Origin: Arachidicoccus rhizosphaerae
Lineage (GTDB): Bacteria; Bacteroidota; Bacteroidia; Chitinophagales; Chitinophagaceae
Reading direction: 5' to 3'
DNA: 64,000 bases
NCBI RefSeq assembly: GCF_900107765.1
Contig: NZ_FNQY01000005.1
Location: 1-64,000, forward strand
Positions 4,749-64,000 of this stretch are shown one piece after another. Positions within the stretch are counted from its first letter, which is position 1; every line of letters begins with the position of its first letter. The translations under genes were made by a program, and so were the position numbers. Below the pieces are notes generated by a model. That model worked only from the letters and a program-made list of their open reading frames with translations. It was not told the origin of the DNA and made no database searches.

Positions 4749-6167
4749 TTATTCAGCTGCTTTTACAAGCGCATATTCAATGTTCGGATAACCTCTGGTT
4801 CCGCCATCCTGACTGATAAAGTTGTTGAATCTCAGTTTATAGTAATTGCCGATCGGATCTTTGATAATAAAGAATCTATCTGTATATACTCCAATGGCAG
4901 TCCCGGTAGTTGCACGCCAATTTGAACCAATGGCATCTCTTTCTCCACTAAAGCTCAGACCAGTCAGATCCTTGGCAGCGAAGGCGTCATACTTAACATC
5001 TGCCGTCTTGACTTCAGCAGCCTGCACACCGTCATAATTATTAATAAACACAAGATCAGAGAATGGATAATAAATGGAACTACTACCGGTGCTGGTATAA
5101 TAAGAACCTACACCCCATTGAAAATCCCACTTTTTACCGGCCGGCATCACATCCACTAAACTACCATTATCCAGGCTGACATAAGAGAAAGTATGTGAAT
5201 CATCTTTGGTAATATCAACAGTCTTAAATGTTGCGTCCGCGATTTTTGCATATTGCAACTGGTAACCGCCATCTTTTTGGATAATTCTGATTTTCATCCA
5301 GTCTCTGTTTCCGTCAGAATGTGCAGCAGCTTCGCCTCTATTGAGAATATATACTTTATTGGCTGAAGCGTCAGAAGAAATGGCACCAATCACGGTTTTT
5401 GATAAATCACCGCTAAAATCATCCACTTTTGCCAAATCACCTGATGTATAAGTACTGGTTAATACGATGCCGGCAGTATCCGCTGCAGTAACCTGGGTTA
5501 AATCCGTCTTATTGATCGCCACGGCCATTGCTTCAGGCAGCGTATTATTTAGGATTACTCTAAAGTCATCCCCGCTATAAAAACCCAGATCCCATTTGAT
5601 GCGGTTAACTGCAGTTTGCTTATTGGCGCTTAAATCTACAAATACCACATTTTCAGCTGCGCTGCCACCTTCACCACCATTGATCTTCATACTGCTTCCC
5701 TCTGAAACAATTGCAGAAAATACAACATTCAGGGAATCTGTCATCCCAACAACAACCGAACTACTGACGGAACCGATAACGAAACTCAAAAATTCATCCC
5801 CGTCAAGAGTGACTCCTGCTGCCTTGGTAACCTTAAATACGGCTTCCTGTGCACCTTGTTCATAAGGAACTTGCAAAACACCGTTGGAAGCAACCGGATC
5901 GGTTTCATATTGAGTGCCGTATGTCACACCATTCTCACCCAATTGAACTTCAATAGTACCTGCTGCATCTGCCGCTCTGGAAAAATTCAGGTGTACTTCC
6001 AGCGAAGATTCATCTGCACTGAAACCCACTTTACTTGATTCAAACTGAACCTGGTTGGCTGCCACAGGAGGATCATCCTTTTTGCAGGCAGTTAATGAAA
6101 AAGCAACGACACTCACTAACAGCATTATTTGTTTAAATGCTTTAAATTGAAAACGAAAACTCTGCAT
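4749..6167 (-). CDS. HmuY family haem-binding lipoprotein
   Basis: A 472-residue surface lipoprotein: the lipobox FSLTAC puts the lipidated Cys near residue 28, followed by KKDD. The N-terminal third resembles a Calx-beta/immunoglobulin-like segment (GTIEVQLGENGVTYGTQYE). The remainder has HmuY features: an early NRIKWDLGFYSGDDFRVILN region, and a C-terminal YYLRFNNF-type strand with a final EYALVKAAE. HmuY proteins capture haem and pass it to a TonB receptor, which is the gene immediately upstream (54 bp apart). Substrate specificity for haem is inferred from the family; haem-ligating residues were not identified. Confidence 0.82.
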   Translation of the reverse strand: MQSFRFQFKAFKQIMLLVSVVAFSLTACKKDDPPVAANQVQFESSKVGFSADESSLEVHLNFSRAADAAGTIEVQLGENGVTYGTQYETDPVASNGVLQVPYEQGAQEAVFKVTKAAGVTLDGDEFLSFVIGSVSSSVVVGMTDSLNVVFSAIVSEGSSMKINGGEGGSAAENVVFVDLSANKQTAVNRIKWDLGFYSGDDFRVILNNTLPEAMAVAINKTDLTQVTAADTAGIVLTSTYTSGDLAKVDDFSGDLSKTVIGAISSDASANKVYILNRGEAAAHSDGNRDWMKIRIIQKDGGYQLQYAKIADATFKTVDITKDDSHTFSYVSLDNGSLVDVMPAGKKWDFQWGVGSYYTSTGSSSIYYPFSDLVFINNYDGVQAAEVKTADVKYDAFAAKDLTGLSFSGERDAIGSNWRATTGTAIGVYTDRFFIIKDPIGNYYKLRFNNFISQDGGTRGYPNIEYALVKAAE

Positions 6168-57182: not shown

Positions 57183-60100
57183 TCATCTAATCATTTTTTT
57201 CTCAAAATACAGGTTTGGCAAAACGACCTTATATTCATTTTCTCTTTCCTTGTCCCACCAATGGACAATGAAGTTCACCTCTGCGCGGACCACCTTAAAG
57301 CCCTGTGAGGCTTGTTTTTCCACAAATCTTGTAAATTCTTTTGAGAACTGCACCACCCGGATTCCTTTTTGGTTTAAACATCCTCCTTCCACCACTGTCA
57401 AGGCGTCACCACTGACCAACTGTCCAATAGAACCTTGCTCCTTGCGGCTATGTCCGAGGTATATTTGCGTCATGTCCAGCGGCACCAAGATTTCTGCAGG
57501 GGCCAGATACTGCTGTTGATTTTCTACCCACTGCAACCCCTCAGCCGATATGCCATTTAAATAATCCCCATTCAGATGAATATTTAAATAGTTCTTTGCC
57601 CGGGTCATACCTACATAAAGCGCTCTTCTATCCTCATCTGTACGTAGCTGTGCGTCTTCCAATAACATAAATACCTGGTCAAATTCCTTTCCTTTGGCTT
57701 TATGAATGGTAGACACATAAATCAATTCCCCTTTTTCCCTATAAAAGTCCTCTAGCCTGGACTCCTCAATAAATAAATTCAAATCAGATTTATACCTGGA
57801 TTTAGGGCTAATCTGTTCAAAATCCCGAATCAGATTCAGGCATAAATCCAGATTGGCACTTCTTTGAAAACTGGATTTTAAAATTCTGATGGCCTCCTTC
57901 CATGTGTCATGATCGATCACCTTTTGATCAGAAGTTGTTCCAAGTAGCTCTACAAAATAACGAAGCTCTGCCAAAGCGGGTAATTTAAAGGCCCGGTTAC
58001 TCTGAATAAATCTGGCAGGAAGCCCAGCCATCAGTAACTGTCCCATCACCTGTAGCGCCTGGTCGTTTGTTTTAGTAAGGACACAGGTCGTTCCAATAAG
58101 GTCCGCCGATTTAACGGCATCCGCTAACGGTACAATCAGATTTTTATTAGCATAATGCACCACTTTCAAGCGCCCCTTATCTTGATCAACGGCTACAATC
58201 GGGTTATTTTTTAACCGGTGGAAAATAGTTTTAGCAAATTGATTGGTAAAATCCACCAGATTGGCCTTACTTCTATAATTTTCAATCAAATCATAAGACT
58301 TCGCACCAAACTCAGTAATCAGCCGCTCCATATACTCCGCACTAGCACCGCGGAACCCATAAATGTTCTGATCATCATCGCCCACAGCAATCACCCGCAT
58401 CCCTTCATTTTGCTGCATTAAAGCTTCTACCAGGGCAAACTCATGCTGGTCCATATCCTGTGCTTCATCAATAACCATGACTGTTTTGGTAACCCGGCTG
58501 ATGTCTACCTCTTTATCTTTAATCTTTTGTACAGTCTTTATAATCACCTCCCTAGACTCATCAACACTACCTATTTTCCCCAGTAAATCAAAAGCATACG
58601 CATGAAAAGTCTTGACATCTATATAATAAGCCGCTGCACCCACCAGCTGAATCAGTCTTTTTTTAAGTTCCGTTGCCGCTGCTCTGGAAAAAGTAAGCAT
58701 CAATAGCTGCTCATGCTTTATGTCCTCCATCAAGAGCAAGGCAGCCATCTTATGCACCAAAATCCTTGTTTTACCGCTACCTGGTCCGGCAGCTACAACA
58801 ATATACTGACTTTGCTGATCCTGGATAATGGCGTGTTGAGCCGGGGACAGTTCGCCGAAGAGCTGCTGAAATTTCTTATGGGTAATTTTGCGACTTAACT
58901 CCTCAGCCTTACTACCCGGGAAATATTTTCTTAGAAAAGCGCCGTAGTTTAGCTTAAAGTAATCCTCTGTAAAATTCAGGGCTGCCGTATAGTCTTCTAC
59001 CATTTTTTGGGCATACTCCCCTACGATATGGATTTGCTGAACCCTGTTCTCGTAAAACAGATACAGGTTTTGATAATCCTGTTTGGTAAACCTTTTCTTA
59101 TTATCTTTTTCAAGACGTTCAATAGTTAGTCCGTTATAAGAGACCATAAAACCGCCTTCAATTTTAATGGCTTCTATTCTGGACAAATAATATAAAGCAT
59201 CTTCTATTTCGGTATTACTGACCGGCTCTTTGTCAAATAAATGGAGTTGCTGCTGATAGGCATTTTTAAGTTCCTGTTCAGAAAATAACACCAGGGATTC
59301 AGGGGCATTATTCCCGGCGATCTCCACAACCTTACTTTCCCTCTCCCCTGCCCTTTTAAATAAAAACTGGAGAATAAAACGACTTAGCGCGTGTCGCTTT
59401 TCCATTTTCCCCTGTAATACTTCCACTTTTTGCAGACATTCCGCCTCAAAATGATAAGGGCTACCTCCGGCAAATCTCCGCTTTATCCATCCCGAAGTGG
59501 ACAAATAATTCAGCAAGACCTTTATTTTGCCGGGATTTACACCATCGATGCCTGTAAGCGCTGCCGCTGCATTGAGTTGCTTTAGATGAAAGGGCATGGA
59601 ACGATCCGAAAACTGCTGCAGCAAAAACTGCTCAAGTTGCCCGTAGGTTCTAAGGATATCCAGTACCCGGCTTTGTTTTTCTCCTTTTTTAATATAAACC
59701 GACAAATCCTTATTATCTGCCAATATGCCTTCCTCCCTTAACAGGTTCACAATCCGTATTACTTCTTCTTTTACAATCCCCAGATGATCACTGATATAAT
59801 CCACCCTGGACTCTGGCACCTCATCTGCTACTTGTTTACGGCTCCTGCTGGAAATCAGTTTTCTTACAATCCTTGCACCGTCTTCTTTTTGTTGCGGGGT
59901 AAACCGGTTTGACTGGTTAATTCTACCAACCGCTTCATCCGCATTTTTAACGAGCATACTACTGGCATAGACCCTGGGCATATTTTGGCCCCGCTCTAAA
60001 AAGCCCGCATTTTCCAGACTGGCAATAGCGGTATTTACTCTAGTCTCTACATCCTTAATATTATCCTCCCATCCAGCCTTTCTGGCAATCTCAAGTGCAG

Positions 60101-62042
60101 AATTAGACACTTTTGCCCTAAGTCTCGTTAAATCCTTGATGGCTTTCCAGACCTGTTGGATTTCTTTGATGGTTAATTTGGTCTGATTGAGCAGCAATAG
60201 ATGCTGACTTAAATCCTCCTCATTATACAACACATAACAGCTGGCCAGAATATCCTCATCTCTGCCAGCTCTACCTGCTTCCTGTACATAGTTTTCCAGA
60301 GAATCCGAGATTTCATAGTGGATCACCATGCCGACATCCTTTTTATCCACCCCCATGCCAAAGGCAGAGGTTGCCACCATAACATTTACTGCGCCACTCA
60401 AAAAAGCATTTTGATTCTCCGTTTTCTCCTGCACTTCCATCTTGCCATGATAAGGCCTGGCCTCCACGCCATCCTCCACCAGTCTTTGGGCCAGATCATA
60501 AGCCTTTTTGGTCCTGGATACATAAACAATAGTCGGGCAATTGCCATCATAAATCAGATTTCTCAGCTTTTGATACCGCTCCGTTTCTGTTTCTATGGGA
60601 ATCACCGAATAATGGAGATTCGTTCTTGCAGCACTAGCTGTAAATTCCAGCATCTCCAGATTCAGGTGCTGCTTAAAATAGGCCTTGATATCTTCAATCA
60701 CATTCTTTTTAGCGGTGGCAGAAAAGCAGGAGACCGGTATTGGGTCAGATAGCCCTTTTTGCGCTTGTAGCTCCCTGATAAAAGGTCCGATATAGGTATA
60801 GTCAATTCTAAAGTCCTGGCCCCAGGCAGAAAAACAGTGGGCCTCATCAATAACGAAGCGCACAATTTTCCGGCCCAGCAGTAATCGCTGCATGGTTCTG
60901 GATCTTAAAGACTCAGGCGAGATATATAATAAAGCGGCACTGCCATTTTCCACCCGCTCAATAGCCTTGGACCTGGCAATCGGATCCAGAAGCCCATTAA
61001 TCATGACTGCCTCCGTAATATTTTTCCCCTCCAAATTATCCACCTGGTCTTTCATAAGTGATTGCAGGGGAGCAATGACCACCGTCAGTCCTTTTACCGC
61101 TTCTCCACTCATGAGGGCCGGCAACTGAAAGGTAATAGATTTGCCACCGCCCGTCGGGAACACGGCTAAAAGCGACTTATCGCCAACCGCAGCCTGGACA
61201 GCCTCCTTTTGCAAGTCCCTGCCCTCATAACGTCTAAAAGCAGTAAAGCCGAAGATATCCTTAAGTGCTTTATGGATATCCCATTTCTTATCACAATAGC
61301 CACAGCCCTTCAGACAAGGTTTACTTCTTAACAGATACATCAGCTGATCCACCCTAGGAAAATTCTTCACGACCCAGGGCGGTGTTATTGAATAGCGATC
61401 ATTGACCGCTATCAGTGCTAATGCATAAGCCAGTTCAACAGGCGATTTCTCAATAAAATCATTAAGAGTTGCCTCAGCGCAGATCAAATCCCCGAACTTT
61501 AAGCGGATAAGCGCTTCCGGATTTTCATTATTATAATGCAGGGGGCTATTTACACGCAGGTAATTAAAAAAACCCGTAAAACGCGCTTCCTTAGACAGTA
61601 AACCCCAGAAGATTGCCTGCATCTGAGCATCCAGCTGATAAAAGCTGTTGATTTCGTCATAAAACAAGTCCCTGGCCTTGATAGCATCATTTAAAGGATT
61701 ATTCAGCGAATCTGATTGCAGTTTATCATCTTTAACCAGCTTGTGGTAAGGATTTTTGGGGAATAGCAGCGCAGAGAGTAGCAGGGTATCGATATAGTAA
61801 TCCTGTCCAATACCCGCATTTAATACAGAGTTTCCAACAAAATGAAGGTCATGAGCTAATATATTATGACCACAAACAAATGCGCTTCCTTTAATAAATT
61901 CCATAAATCCAGCAACCGAGGGATTATGATAACGACTTCCATCATCTTTTATCCCGCCGATATCCAGCAACTTTTTGCTATCTGGATCTATTTCTGTATC
62001 AATAAATGCGATTGCACTCATATAAGTTAAATCTGTTTTCAT
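57183..62042 (-). CDS. Giant fusion: DEDD-exonuclease-like domain, RecQ helicase and UvrD/PcrA helicase
   Basis: A single frame of 1619 residues (from ATG 62042; GTG 62099 and ATG 62021 also possible). Residues below are counted from 62099. An N-terminal 3'-5' exonuclease-like fold shows AFIDTEID (D34, E36), NILAHDLHF (D84) and NDAIKARD (D138), but the usual catalytic His is Asn. A Cys cluster CLKGCGYCD (262-269) follows. The RecQ core has FPTGGGKS (314-321), DEAH (418-421) and QEAGRAGRD (606-614), with RQC/WH-like modules to about 900. The SF1 UvrD core has GPGSGKT (1105-1111), IDEAQD, GDDDQNIYGFRG and VGMTRAKNYL. It probably unwinds and processes DNA ends in repair or defence. Confidence 0.9.
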   Translation of the reverse strand: MKTDLTYMSAIAFIDTEIDPDSKKLLDIGGIKDDGSRYHNPSVAGFMEFIKGSAFVCGHNILAHDLHFVGNSVLNAGIGQDYYIDTLLLSALLFPKNPYHKLVKDDKLQSDSLNNPLNDAIKARDLFYDEINSFYQLDAQMQAIFWGLLSKEARFTGFFNYLRVNSPLHYNNENPEALIRLKFGDLICAEATLNDFIEKSPVELAYALALIAVNDRYSITPPWVVKNFPRVDQLMYLLRSKPCLKGCGYCDKKWDIHKALKDIFGFTAFRRYEGRDLQKEAVQAAVGDKSLLAVFPTGGGKSITFQLPALMSGEAVKGLTVVIAPLQSLMKDQVDNLEGKNITEAVMINGLLDPIARSKAIERVENGSAALLYISPESLRSRTMQRLLLGRKIVRFVIDEAHCFSAWGQDFRIDYTYIGPFIRELQAQKGLSDPIPVSCFSATAKKNVIEDIKAYFKQHLNLEMLEFTASAARTNLHYSVIPIETETERYQKLRNLIYDGNCPTIVYVSRTKKAYDLAQRLVEDGVEARPYHGKMEVQEKTENQNAFLSGAVNVMVATSAFGMGVDKKDVGMVIHYEISDSLENYVQEAGRAGRDEDILASCYVLYNEEDLSQHLLLLNQTKLTIKEIQQVWKAIKDLTRLRAKVSNSALEIARKAGWEDNIKDVETRVNTAIASLENAGFLERGQNMPRVYASSMLVKNADEAVGRINQSNRFTPQQKEDGARIVRKLISSRSRKQVADEVPESRVDYISDHLGIVKEEVIRIVNLLREEGILADNKDLSVYIKKGEKQSRVLDILRTYGQLEQFLLQQFSDRSMPFHLKQLNAAAALTGIDGVNPGKIKVLLNYLSTSGWIKRRFAGGSPYHFEAECLQKVEVLQGKMEKRHALSRFILQFLFKRAGERESKVVEIAGNNAPESLVLFSEQELKNAYQQQLHLFDKEPVSNTEIEDALYYLSRIEAIKIEGGFMVSYNGLTIERLEKDNKKRFTKQDYQNLYLFYENRVQQIHIVGEYAQKMVEDYTAALNFTEDYFKLNYGAFLRKYFPGSKAEELSRKITHKKFQQLFGELSPAQHAIIQDQQSQYIVVAAGPGSGKTRILVHKMAALLLMEDIKHEQLLMLTFSRAAATELKKRLIQLVGAAAYYIDVKTFHAYAFDLLGKIGSVDESREVIIKTVQKIKDKEVDISRVTKTVMVIDEAQDMDQHEFALVEALMQQNEGMRVIAVGDDDQNIYGFRGASAEYMERLITEFGAKSYDLIENYRSKANLVDFTNQFAKTIFHRLKNNPIVAVDQDKGRLKVVHYANKNLIVPLADAVKSADLIGTTCVLTKTNDQALQVMGQLLMAGLPARFIQSNRAFKLPALAELRYFVELLGTTSDQKVIDHDTWKEAIRILKSSFQRSANLDLCLNLIRDFEQISPKSRYKSDLNLFIEESRLEDFYREKGELIYVSTIHKAKGKEFDQVFMLLEDAQLRTDEDRRALYVGMTRAKNYLNIHLNGDYLNGISAEGLQWVENQQQYLAPAEILVPLDMTQIYLGHSRKEQGSIGQLVSGDALTVVEGGCLNQKGIRVVQFSKEFTRFVEKQASQGFKVVRAEVNFIVHWWDKERENEYKVVLPNLYFEKKMIR

Positions 62043-62214
62043 GGCACTCCCCCGACTAGTCAAAACGGGACTGCGTACTGGATGCATCCCAAAAGCCACG
62101 AGAAAGATTATTCAAATATCGTGAAAATCAGTGAAAAAACGGCATGCGTTCAATTAACCTATTGAAACTCAGACAACCCATAAATTTTACCGAGCACACA
62201 GCGTCATAACCCTT

Positions 62215-63639
62215 TTAATCAAAAAATATATCCATGGTTAACTGACTATGGATGACTGAGTGGAAGTGGTTATTCTCTTTTACACCATAAGGGGTAATCA
62301 TTATCATAAAAATGCCTTTTCTCGTTTTTGTGCTACTGGCAAAAACACCTATTTTATTCCTTAGGTTATCTGCCATTTCTTTATTCACACTAATAAAATT
62401 CATCGAGAATTTAAATTCAAATAAATTGATGATCTGGTCCCTCCTGTCAATGACCAGATCAATCTGGGCTTTTCGCTCACCATCACTACCCAACCAGCAA
62501 GAAGTATTAGTTTGAATCATATCAATTCTCAATGCCCGCTTAATATCAGTTACATGTGTCAAGCCAATTAGTTCAAAGGCATAACCACTCCAAGCCCTAT
62601 AACTTGGGTCATCAATTCCGTTTATCCAATTATTGGCATCATCAACACTTGTACCTTCTATAAACTTTAAATAGAAAAGCGAATAAAAATCTACCAATTG
62701 ATACAAAACGCCATATTTTTTCTTCCCAAATGCATTGTATTTGCGAATAAAATTACTCTGTTCCAGTTCCATCAAAATTTTAGTCAATGAGCCCCCACTG
62801 GCTAGCTTTGTCATTTGAGCCAGTTCCTCTCTGGTCAGCCCCATACTTTTTTTGGCCAATGCTTTTACTACGGCAATATGCTGCGCTTCATTTTTAAACA
62901 GGGAATTATAGACCCCGTAAAAATCAGTTCTTAACTTCCCATTCTCGCCAAAAGCCATATCATTGATATTCTGAGCAGCGCTTTTCTTTGGATCTATATC
63001 TTCCAGATAAAATGGAATACCGCCCATTACCATATAAAACTGCATAATATTATACCTGGTAAATCCATCGCCCTTTTTTAAGATAAACTCCTCCGTTTCT
63101 CTGAGTGTAAAGGGCGCTAACTGCATCCGGTGCGTTACCCTGTTATACAAACCACCCCTGCCCATAATCAATTTATTTAACATCCAACTGGCAGCAGAGC
63201 CGCACACTATCAGAAAGATGTCATTTCTTGTACTTGCCCATGCATTCCAAAATAGCTCAAGAGCCGAGATAAACTCTGATCTAGAGGTATCCATCCAGGG
63301 TAACTCATCCAAAAAAATAATTTTCCGCTTCTCTCCCTTTGATTCTAACAACTTTTGTAATACCCGAAATGCACCAAACCAATCATTAATATCTGCGGTA
63401 TTTATATTTGAATTGGAATAGTTTTCAATGGCCCCTAAAAAATTAGAGAGCTGTGCTTTAGTGGATTTATTGAACAGTCCAGTGCAATAGAAGTCGAACT
63501 TCTCCTGAAAATACGACTTGATAAAATAGGTTTTCCCCACTCTCCTTCGCCCATAAATCGCCAAAAAGGTGGGTCTGTTTAGTTTAACCAGTTTGTCCAA
63601 TTCGAGTTTCTCCTGCTTACGTCCAACAAAAAAATCCAT
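62215..63639 (-). CDS. AAA ATPase with C-terminal DUF234 (nuclease-like) domain
   Basis: A 474-residue ATP-binding protein. Walker A is IYGRRRVGKTYFIKSY (near residue 30) and Walker B is KIIFLDELPWMD. The C-terminal part (from about 330) is DUF234-like, with KAQIDLVIDRRDQIINLFEFKFS, an Asp...Glu-x-Lys arrangement seen in PD-(D/E)xK nucleases. A winged-helix segment (LTREELAQMTKLASGGSLTKILMELEQSNFIRKY) lies between. Such ATPases are multicopy in Bacteroidota with unknown roles. The gene is preceded by an array of inverted 9-bp motifs and stands 172 bp upstream of the helicase start on the same strand. Confidence 0.85.
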   Translation of the reverse strand: MDFFVGRKQEKLELDKLVKLNRPTFLAIYGRRRVGKTYFIKSYFQEKFDFYCTGLFNKSTKAQLSNFLGAIENYSNSNINTADINDWFGAFRVLQKLLESKGEKRKIIFLDELPWMDTSRSEFISALELFWNAWASTRNDIFLIVCGSAASWMLNKLIMGRGGLYNRVTHRMQLAPFTLRETEEFILKKGDGFTRYNIMQFYMVMGGIPFYLEDIDPKKSAAQNINDMAFGENGKLRTDFYGVYNSLFKNEAQHIAVVKALAKKSMGLTREELAQMTKLASGGSLTKILMELEQSNFIRKYNAFGKKKYGVLYQLVDFYSLFYLKFIEGTSVDDANNWINGIDDPSYRAWSGYAFELIGLTHVTDIKRALRIDMIQTNTSCWLGSDGERKAQIDLVIDRRDQIINLFEFKFSMNFISVNKEMADNLRNKIGVFASSTKTRKGIFMIMITPYGVKENNHFHSVIHSQLTMDIFFD

Positions 63640-64000
63640 AAAAGCTAAATTTAATTATTACATATACTTTTTAATAATTCGTATAAAGATAATAATAAAT
63701 AGATTATATTTTTCTGGCTGATTATACGAACCTTAACTAGCCAAAAATACAATAAATTTCAGTTTTTGGCTAGTTATAGGACACTTAATTAGCCAAATCT
63801 TCTTTTTTATACAAAGAACTCGTTTTATAAAAATACTGAACAGCACAAGCAATATGAGTACATATCTTTATTTACATAATATTGTTAATTATATTATTCA
63901 ATTCATTATATTTTTTTAGCTGATTAGTGTGCCACTAACTAGCCAAAAACGTGTTTTTTTGTCGTTTTTGGCTAGTTATAAAAAATCCTCTGTAAAGCAC
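63640..64000. other. AT-rich upstream region of the AAA/DUF234 gene
   Basis: No gene was recognised in these 361 bp. They contain the motif array at 63716-63978 and very AT-rich spacers. No TAnnTTTG box with a proper -33 was found facing the ATPase gene. Confidence 0.6.
63716..63978. repeat. Array of seven GGCTRRTTA motifs in inverted pairs
   Basis: Seven 9-mers: GGCTGATTA 63716-63724 (+), TAACTAGCC 63734-63742 (-), GGCTAGTTA 63768-63776 (+), TAATTAGCC 63786-63794 (-), AGCTGATTA 63918-63926 (+), TAACTAGCC 63936-63944 (-), GGCTAGTTA 63970-63978 (+). Inverted pairs are always 9 bp apart, and the gap to the next motif is 25 bp both times. The second block repeats the first after 202 bp, including the flanking ATTATATTTTT. 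The 25-bp gaps are themselves arms and loops of hairpins (14-bp and 16-bp stems). Confidence 0.85.

Follow-up and report, generated by a model that had tools for sequence, protein, structure and literature searches.

A predicted ATPase-nuclease gene of Arachidicoccus rhizosphaerae is preceded by an inverted-motif array that is most likely the DNA target of its own winged helix

Why would a regularly spaced array of inverted 9-bp motifs lie upstream of a single ATPase gene, and which protein, if any, reads it? The question was raised by a 64,000-bp stretch of the A. rhizosphaerae genome (assembly GCF_900107765.1, contig NZ_FNQY01000005.1, positions 1 to 64,000; hereafter the window), for which the original prediction described seven copies of GGCTRRTTA in strict geometry and inferred that they are the target of the adjacent AAA/DUF234 ATPase. 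We confirmed that the array exists: it comprises six exact copies and a seventh with one mismatch, with gaps of 9 bp (three times) and 25 bp (twice) and an offset of 202 bp between its two blocks (Table 1). Only 2.86 exact matches were expected in the whole 64 kb, against six in 263 bp, and the one other exact match in the window, at 58316, lies in the neighbouring helicase gene. The predicted hairpins are also real, with 14-bp arms and a 15-bp loop in both blocks. By contrast, the suggestion that the array may run past the window end was not borne out, since no further exact copy was found up to position 78000, and what follows is a hairpin that, by eye, looks like the terminator of the upstream gene, and an unrelated minus-strand gene. 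Further, the pairs with a 9-bp gap, originally called head-to-head, are tail-to-tail, and those with a 25-bp gap head-to-head, when the half-site is read TTTTGG...TATA.

Table 1. Features of the array, the adjacent genes and related upstream arrays. Positions refer to the window unless a locus is named.
Position	Strand	Feature	Sequence	Start of 9-bp core	Remarks
57183-62099		1638-aa fusion of a RecQ-type and a UvrD-type helicase			beside the ATPase gene
62215-63639	-	ATPase-nuclease gene (474 aa)			AAA+/STAND ATPase (Walker A 30-37, Walker B 109-112), winged helix about 251-315, PD-(D/E)XK nuclease (E356, D394, E408-x-K410)
63712-63726	+	half-site 1	TTCTGGCTGATTATA	63716	
63732-63746	-	half-site 2	TTTTGGCTAGTTAAG	63734	tail-to-tail with 1, head-to-head with 3
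63742-63749	-	-7-like box, inferred promoter	TATTTTTG		overlaps half-site 2
63764-63778	+	half-site 3	TTTTGGCTAGTTATA	63768	
63784-63798	-	half-site 4	ATTTGGCTAATTAAG	63786	tail-to-tail with 3; dyad 52 bp from that of 1/2
63914-63928	+	half-site 5	core AGCTGATTA	63918	one mismatch; 5918-5926 of the extended stretch L003; below the cut-off of the half-site scan
63934-63948	-	half-site 6	TTTTGGCTAGTTAGT	63936	
63966-63980	+	half-site 7	TTTTGGCTAGTTATA	63970	
L251: 2870-2985		imperfect palindrome, two copies			upstream of the Wolbachia phage WO homolog
L258: 1370-1465		direct repeats, period 32 bp, 3 copies			same genome as the window, upstream of a gene matching PDC-S01
L261: 1339-1453		direct repeats, period 23 bp, 4 copies			same genome as the window, upstream of a gene matching PDC-S01 (weak match, 2.6e-20)

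To identify the gene, we compared its product with Pfam, PADLOC and the PDB. Pfam gives ATPase_2 (PF01637, 1.2e-14), whereas DUF234 (PF03008) is not listed for this protein at E up to 10, although the HMMER filters may hide weak matches, and is sub-threshold (0.0053, 17.6 of 22.5 bits) in a paralog from the same genome (L013). PADLOC gives a full-length match (PDLC04984, E 2.4e-186, protein 1-473 on profile 1-473 of 474) to PDC-S27, a candidate single-gene defence system described as an archaeal-type ATPase with a C-terminal nuclease of the PD-(D/E)XK type (PMC12988326); the defence function is a prediction there, and anti-phage activity was not measured here. The nuclease residues E356, E408 and K410 are present in 142 of 142 homologs and D394 in 141 of 142. 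An AlphaFold2 model (alignment of 70 sequences, pLDDT 93.7) has an AAA+ ATPase, a winged helix (helices 251-262, 270-277 and 283-294; wing strands 298-302 and 311-315) and a C-terminal domain, the fold of which was seen as secondary structure only. A phmmer search against PDB sequences gave no hit at E up to 1, but Foldseek placed the Pyrococcus abyssi Walker ATPase 2qen first, followed by Orc1/Cdc6 on origin DNA (2qby, E 1.1e-8, TM-score 0.35 by query, the same kind of fold but distant), ORC chains and, lower down, plant NRC proteins (NRC4, 9cc8) and Avs3 (8dgc). The adjacent helicase gene has matches to defence helicase profiles such as DpdF and GajB.

Two conditions had been named in advance that would have overturned the proposed association, namely that the motif pairs occur genome-wide, or that homologous ATPase genes lack any such array. 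Neither occurred. The exact pair GGCTRRTTA-N9-TAAYYAGCC is found in only two places of the 4.87-Mb genome, both in the array (the third pair contains the mismatch), which gives no indication of a regulon elsewhere. The four paralogs in the same genome (39-50% protein identity) each carry an upstream array of the same build, but with another core, for example TTTTGGCGAGATATA or ATTCCGCCAAATATA, and with best palindrome scores of 15-18; the unit of L013 likewise occurs in this genome only in its own array. That each paralog carries a different motif could not have been known to the original prediction. In a relative's genome (G001), a broken ortholog lies beside a homologous helicase gene (63-76% identity over the part seen) and has the window's type of motif, whereas no homologous helicase gene was found within 1.5 kb of the four paralogs.

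To test whether the array is a family trait, we collected 215 distinct full-length homologs, 142 from genus, family and order searches and 73 more from named contigs, after setting aside repeated loci and 41 HSPs that did not span the protein. A scan of genome contigs with the single protein found nothing, whereas a scan with an alignment gave at least 80 named loci. Not every match of the order-level search was retrieved; those with loci were taken, together with 80 stretches, and 15 more for the hold-out described below. The sample is drawn from genomes in which a relative was found at E<=1e-60 (19 of 117 family-level, 74 of 396 order-level and 15 of 296 phylum-level genomes), and it therefore speaks for close PDC-S27 relatives. 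In the 206 of 215 genes with at least 250 bp upstream and no N, a palindrome with an 8-24-bp gap and a score >=9 was found within 250 bp upstream in 190, against 15 of 206 dinucleotide shuffles and 49 of 206 downstream regions, the latter probably in part terminators by our inference; 16 of 206 genes lack such a palindrome. Aligned on the dyad, the units share one layout, with arms about 9-22 bp from the dyad (inner A-S-W-T-W-Y, then V-G-C-N-R-R, outer W-W-A-T-A-A). Two or three units were detected in 44 of 206 genes and only one in 128, and 26 of 48 successive units are 50-56 bp apart. Scanning 58 named loci with each gene's own half-site gave 149 hits in the first 400 bp upstream, by construction since the half-sites were taken from there, but only 5 in the first 400 bp downstream, 5 beyond 400 bp upstream, and none in genes or further downstream.

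The array is not clear in all distant homologs. Among seven plasmid or phage homologs outside that sample, a Butyrivibrio plasmid gene (L249) has a clean palindrome (score 15), and a Wolbachia phage WO gene (L251) has two copies of an imperfect one, seen by eye and missed by the strict score, with TATAAT in the loop, suggesting the same promoter-in-array layout with a sigma70-type box. Palindromes of uncertain kind were found in a gut phage (L255, score 13), Malaciobacter (L250, 11, at 18% G+C), Rhodothermus (L254, 11, 7-bp gap) and Desulfosarcina (L252, 9), and none at score 8 or more in a haloarchaeon (L253).

Which part of the protein might read the motif was examined by covariation. A first extraction of half-sites mixed head and tail dyads and gave almost no correlation between motif and protein (rank correlations 0.02-0.07), whereas re-registering with a profile plus the pairing score raised them to 0.18-0.26. 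This registration retained 179 of 209 genes with at least 200 bp upstream, the other 30 being left out of the code because they could not be registered; it uses no protein information, but the high frequencies of T10 and G14 are partly selected by it. Half-site identity rises from 0.46 for pairs at 35-40% protein identity to 0.96 for pairs above 80%, and in a joint regression the middle domain carries the most weight (0.19 against 0.09 and 0.06). Among residue-base pairs (179 genes, effective number 117), the strongest coupling is residue 281 with base 13 (Z 41.6), followed by 281-12, 309-11 and 284-16; residue 287 also covaries with base 16. In the model, which was made without any DNA information, residues 281, 284 and 287 are at the start of the recognition helix and 309 is in the wing. 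Some couplings outside the winged helix are also high (F25-13, Z 12.6; R120-22, Z 12.1; L157-11, Z 11.9), for which we have no explanation. In 86 representatives below 60% identity, S/T at 281 goes with G at base 13 in 33 of 34, N with A in 24 of 24 and, as a looser rule, D/E with C in 19 of 28, while K309 goes with T at base 11 in 38 of 41 and R309 with A in 21 of 29.

Relatedness does not explain these couplings. In pairs at 50-60% identity, base 13 agrees in 1126 of 1346 if the 281 class agrees and in 191 of 1752 if it does not, whereas three control columns give 45 against 40%, 47 against 41% and 58 against 40%. On a tree built without the winged helix, 27 of 37 changes of 281 class share a branch with a change of base 13 (Fisher 3e-22), as do 20 of 28 changes at 309 with a change of base 11; 281 is the best of 474 columns for base 13, and two control columns are not significant. 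Of 34 loci not used for the table, 23 were used (pair score >=5 and <90% identity to the training set), of which four had a residue outside the code (G, G, K and R), including the Butyrivibrio gene (G281). Seven of the 23 come from one genus and are therefore not independent. The rule gave base 13 correctly in 18 of the 19 covered genes, the one miss being L277 (N281, G observed), and base 11 in 21 of 23. The Wolbachia phage WO gene is among them (E281, C at base 13; its register is uncertain by one base, but C either way).

We next asked how the array relates to the promoter. Boxes of the Bacteroidota -7 type (TAnnTTTG) are concentrated 20-60 bp before the ATG on the gene strand, with 130 against 12 on the other strand over 209 genes. 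Of 179 registered genes, 120 have such a box within 12-120 bp of the ATG and 59 have none in range; the box nearest the ATG lies inside a registered unit in 66 and outside in 54, and in 38 of 120 its last base falls about 12 bp from the dyad, that is, on the half-site. In the window, the box listed in Table 1 is the only one between the gene start and the window end (63640-64000), with none on the other strand; the overlap of array and promoter holds for a predicted box only. The array sits farther from the ATG here (about 72 bp, and about 274 bp for the second block) than the family median of 36 bp, and therefore the second block needs looping or another role.

Taken together, the main inference of the original prediction, that the array is the DNA target of the adjacent ATPase, is strongly supported, and of the roles it offered autoregulation fits best. 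We hypothesize, with a probability of about 0.82, that the array is a private operator of the downstream gene, the product of which binds each half-site (about TTTTGGC-TAGT-TATA here) through its own winged helix, such that the start of the recognition helix (281, 284 and 287) reads the core and the wing (309) reads the inner flank. Facing half-sites, with neighbouring dyads of one kind about five helical turns apart here, would let several ATPase subunits assemble side by side, and the second block could loop. Since the inferred promoter lies inside the array, binding should shut the gene off, which would make a single protein the effector nuclease, the autorepressor and perhaps the sensor. 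In this view, relatives re-specify motif and recognition helix together, so that paralogs in one genome rarely share operators. The computation itself shows that, among close relatives, the array is family-wide, gene-private, upstream, covarying with the winged helix and often overlapping promoter-like boxes; actual binding, repression, cooperative assembly and release on phage attack are inferred from this, and as no binding or expression data were at hand, the covariation, strong as it is, leaves open to either answer whether the protein occupies its own array. Selection for insulation is likewise not shown, since 86 of 87 same-genome paralog pairs differ, but not more than equally distant pairs from other genomes.

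Such a system can be compared with several others. In PDC-S27 as described previously, no array, operator or DNA specificity was seen to be mentioned (PMC12988326). Archaeal Orc1/Cdc6 shares the AAA+ plus winged-helix fold, and its inverted repeats lie beside the protein's own gene, but the present system has a C-terminal nuclease, a promoter-like box inside the array and a motif that differs per paralog, and there is no origin evidence, replication and skew not having been examined. STAND defence ATPases (Avs) and NLRs are similar in fold, and some carry nuclease effectors, whereas here there is a predicted sequence-specific winged helix with a private DNA site and no large sensor domain. RptR represses the promoter of its defence island by binding repeats in it (PMC12255303), but is a separate small regulator, whereas here repressor and nuclease would be one protein. 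Literature searches on DUF234, DUF4143, COG1672 and PF01637 ATPases, on PDC-S27 and other PDC candidates, and on guilt-by-embedding with PADLOC found no description of such arrays, although this is not proof of absence in print; the palindromes of PMC13356809 concern CRISPR, and PMC1913061 was not seen to mention such an array. PDC-S27 is one of the common uncharacterised candidate defence genes, with 3503 in Archaea and 4562 in Bacteria in one genome set (PMC12988326). For its members, at least in Bacteroidota, the present finding adds a defined candidate DNA ligand, a partial recognition code and a testable control circuit to what was a domain list; it also points to a STAND/Orc-like ATPase-nuclease that appears to be its own transcription factor, and offers a way to see how paralogous proteins re-specify together with their sites.

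Alternative to, or beyond, an operator, the array might be an assembly or licensing platform, on which the ATPase oligomerises as archaeal Orc1/Cdc6 does on origin repeats, thereby setting the state of its nuclease (parked when on the array and active when off it, or the reverse); whether binding also controls the nuclease is open. Only in this sense does the origin-like option of the original prediction survive. We consider this less likely than the operator, but it is supported by the Foldseek ranking, by the genes with two or three units, often with a 50-56-bp period, and by the coupling of residue 120, an AAA-domain residue just after Walker B, with the outer bases 21-22, about where the initiator-specific motif of Orc1 would sit. 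However, a pure assembly site would not need to sit at the promoter region and often overlap the -7-like box, and most genes show only one detected unit. A more far-reaching version, no more than possible but of considerable interest if true, is that a large family of ATPase-nucleases, each with a private, re-specifiable DNA address on its own promoter, uses that address as an ATP-dependent parking or licensing site, where an Orc1-like assembly holds the nuclease inactive and the gene silent until infection disturbs it. The 281/284/309 code would then make part of the DNA specificity of a member predictable from its sequence, and residue 120 may touch the outer bases as well.

The option of mobile-unit ends, also proposed originally and taken here as the ends of a single-gene mobile element, is very unlikely as the general case. 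The distribution is patchy, with many copies or pieces (16 matches in G001, several fragmentary, and 35 first-look candidates in another genome, G426), relatives occur on plasmids and in phage records (143 and 7 records with a match), and one locus (L021) has, by eye, a block on both sides. However, matching ends on both sides were not found in general, since own half-sites are scarce downstream (the 5 hits fall in 22,069 bp of the 58 named loci), and the broken ortholog in G001 keeps the window gene's position beside the helicase gene. RNA hairpins acting as terminators or attenuators are also very unlikely despite the perfect 14-bp arms and AT loops, since half-sites covary with amino acids of the winged helix, the same half-site also occurs in tail-to-tail pairs, and the inferred start lies inside the array. 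An operator of some other, unlinked regulator is likewise very unlikely; nothing was found in its favour, and specificity tracks the downstream gene's own winged helix.

The many fragmentary copies of the ATPase family in G001 (L024-L038) suggest fast gain and decay. Upstream arrays may also extend beyond PDC-S27, as suggested by the direct repeats upstream of two genes of PDC-S01, another ATPase-nuclease candidate family, in the same genome as the window (Table 1).
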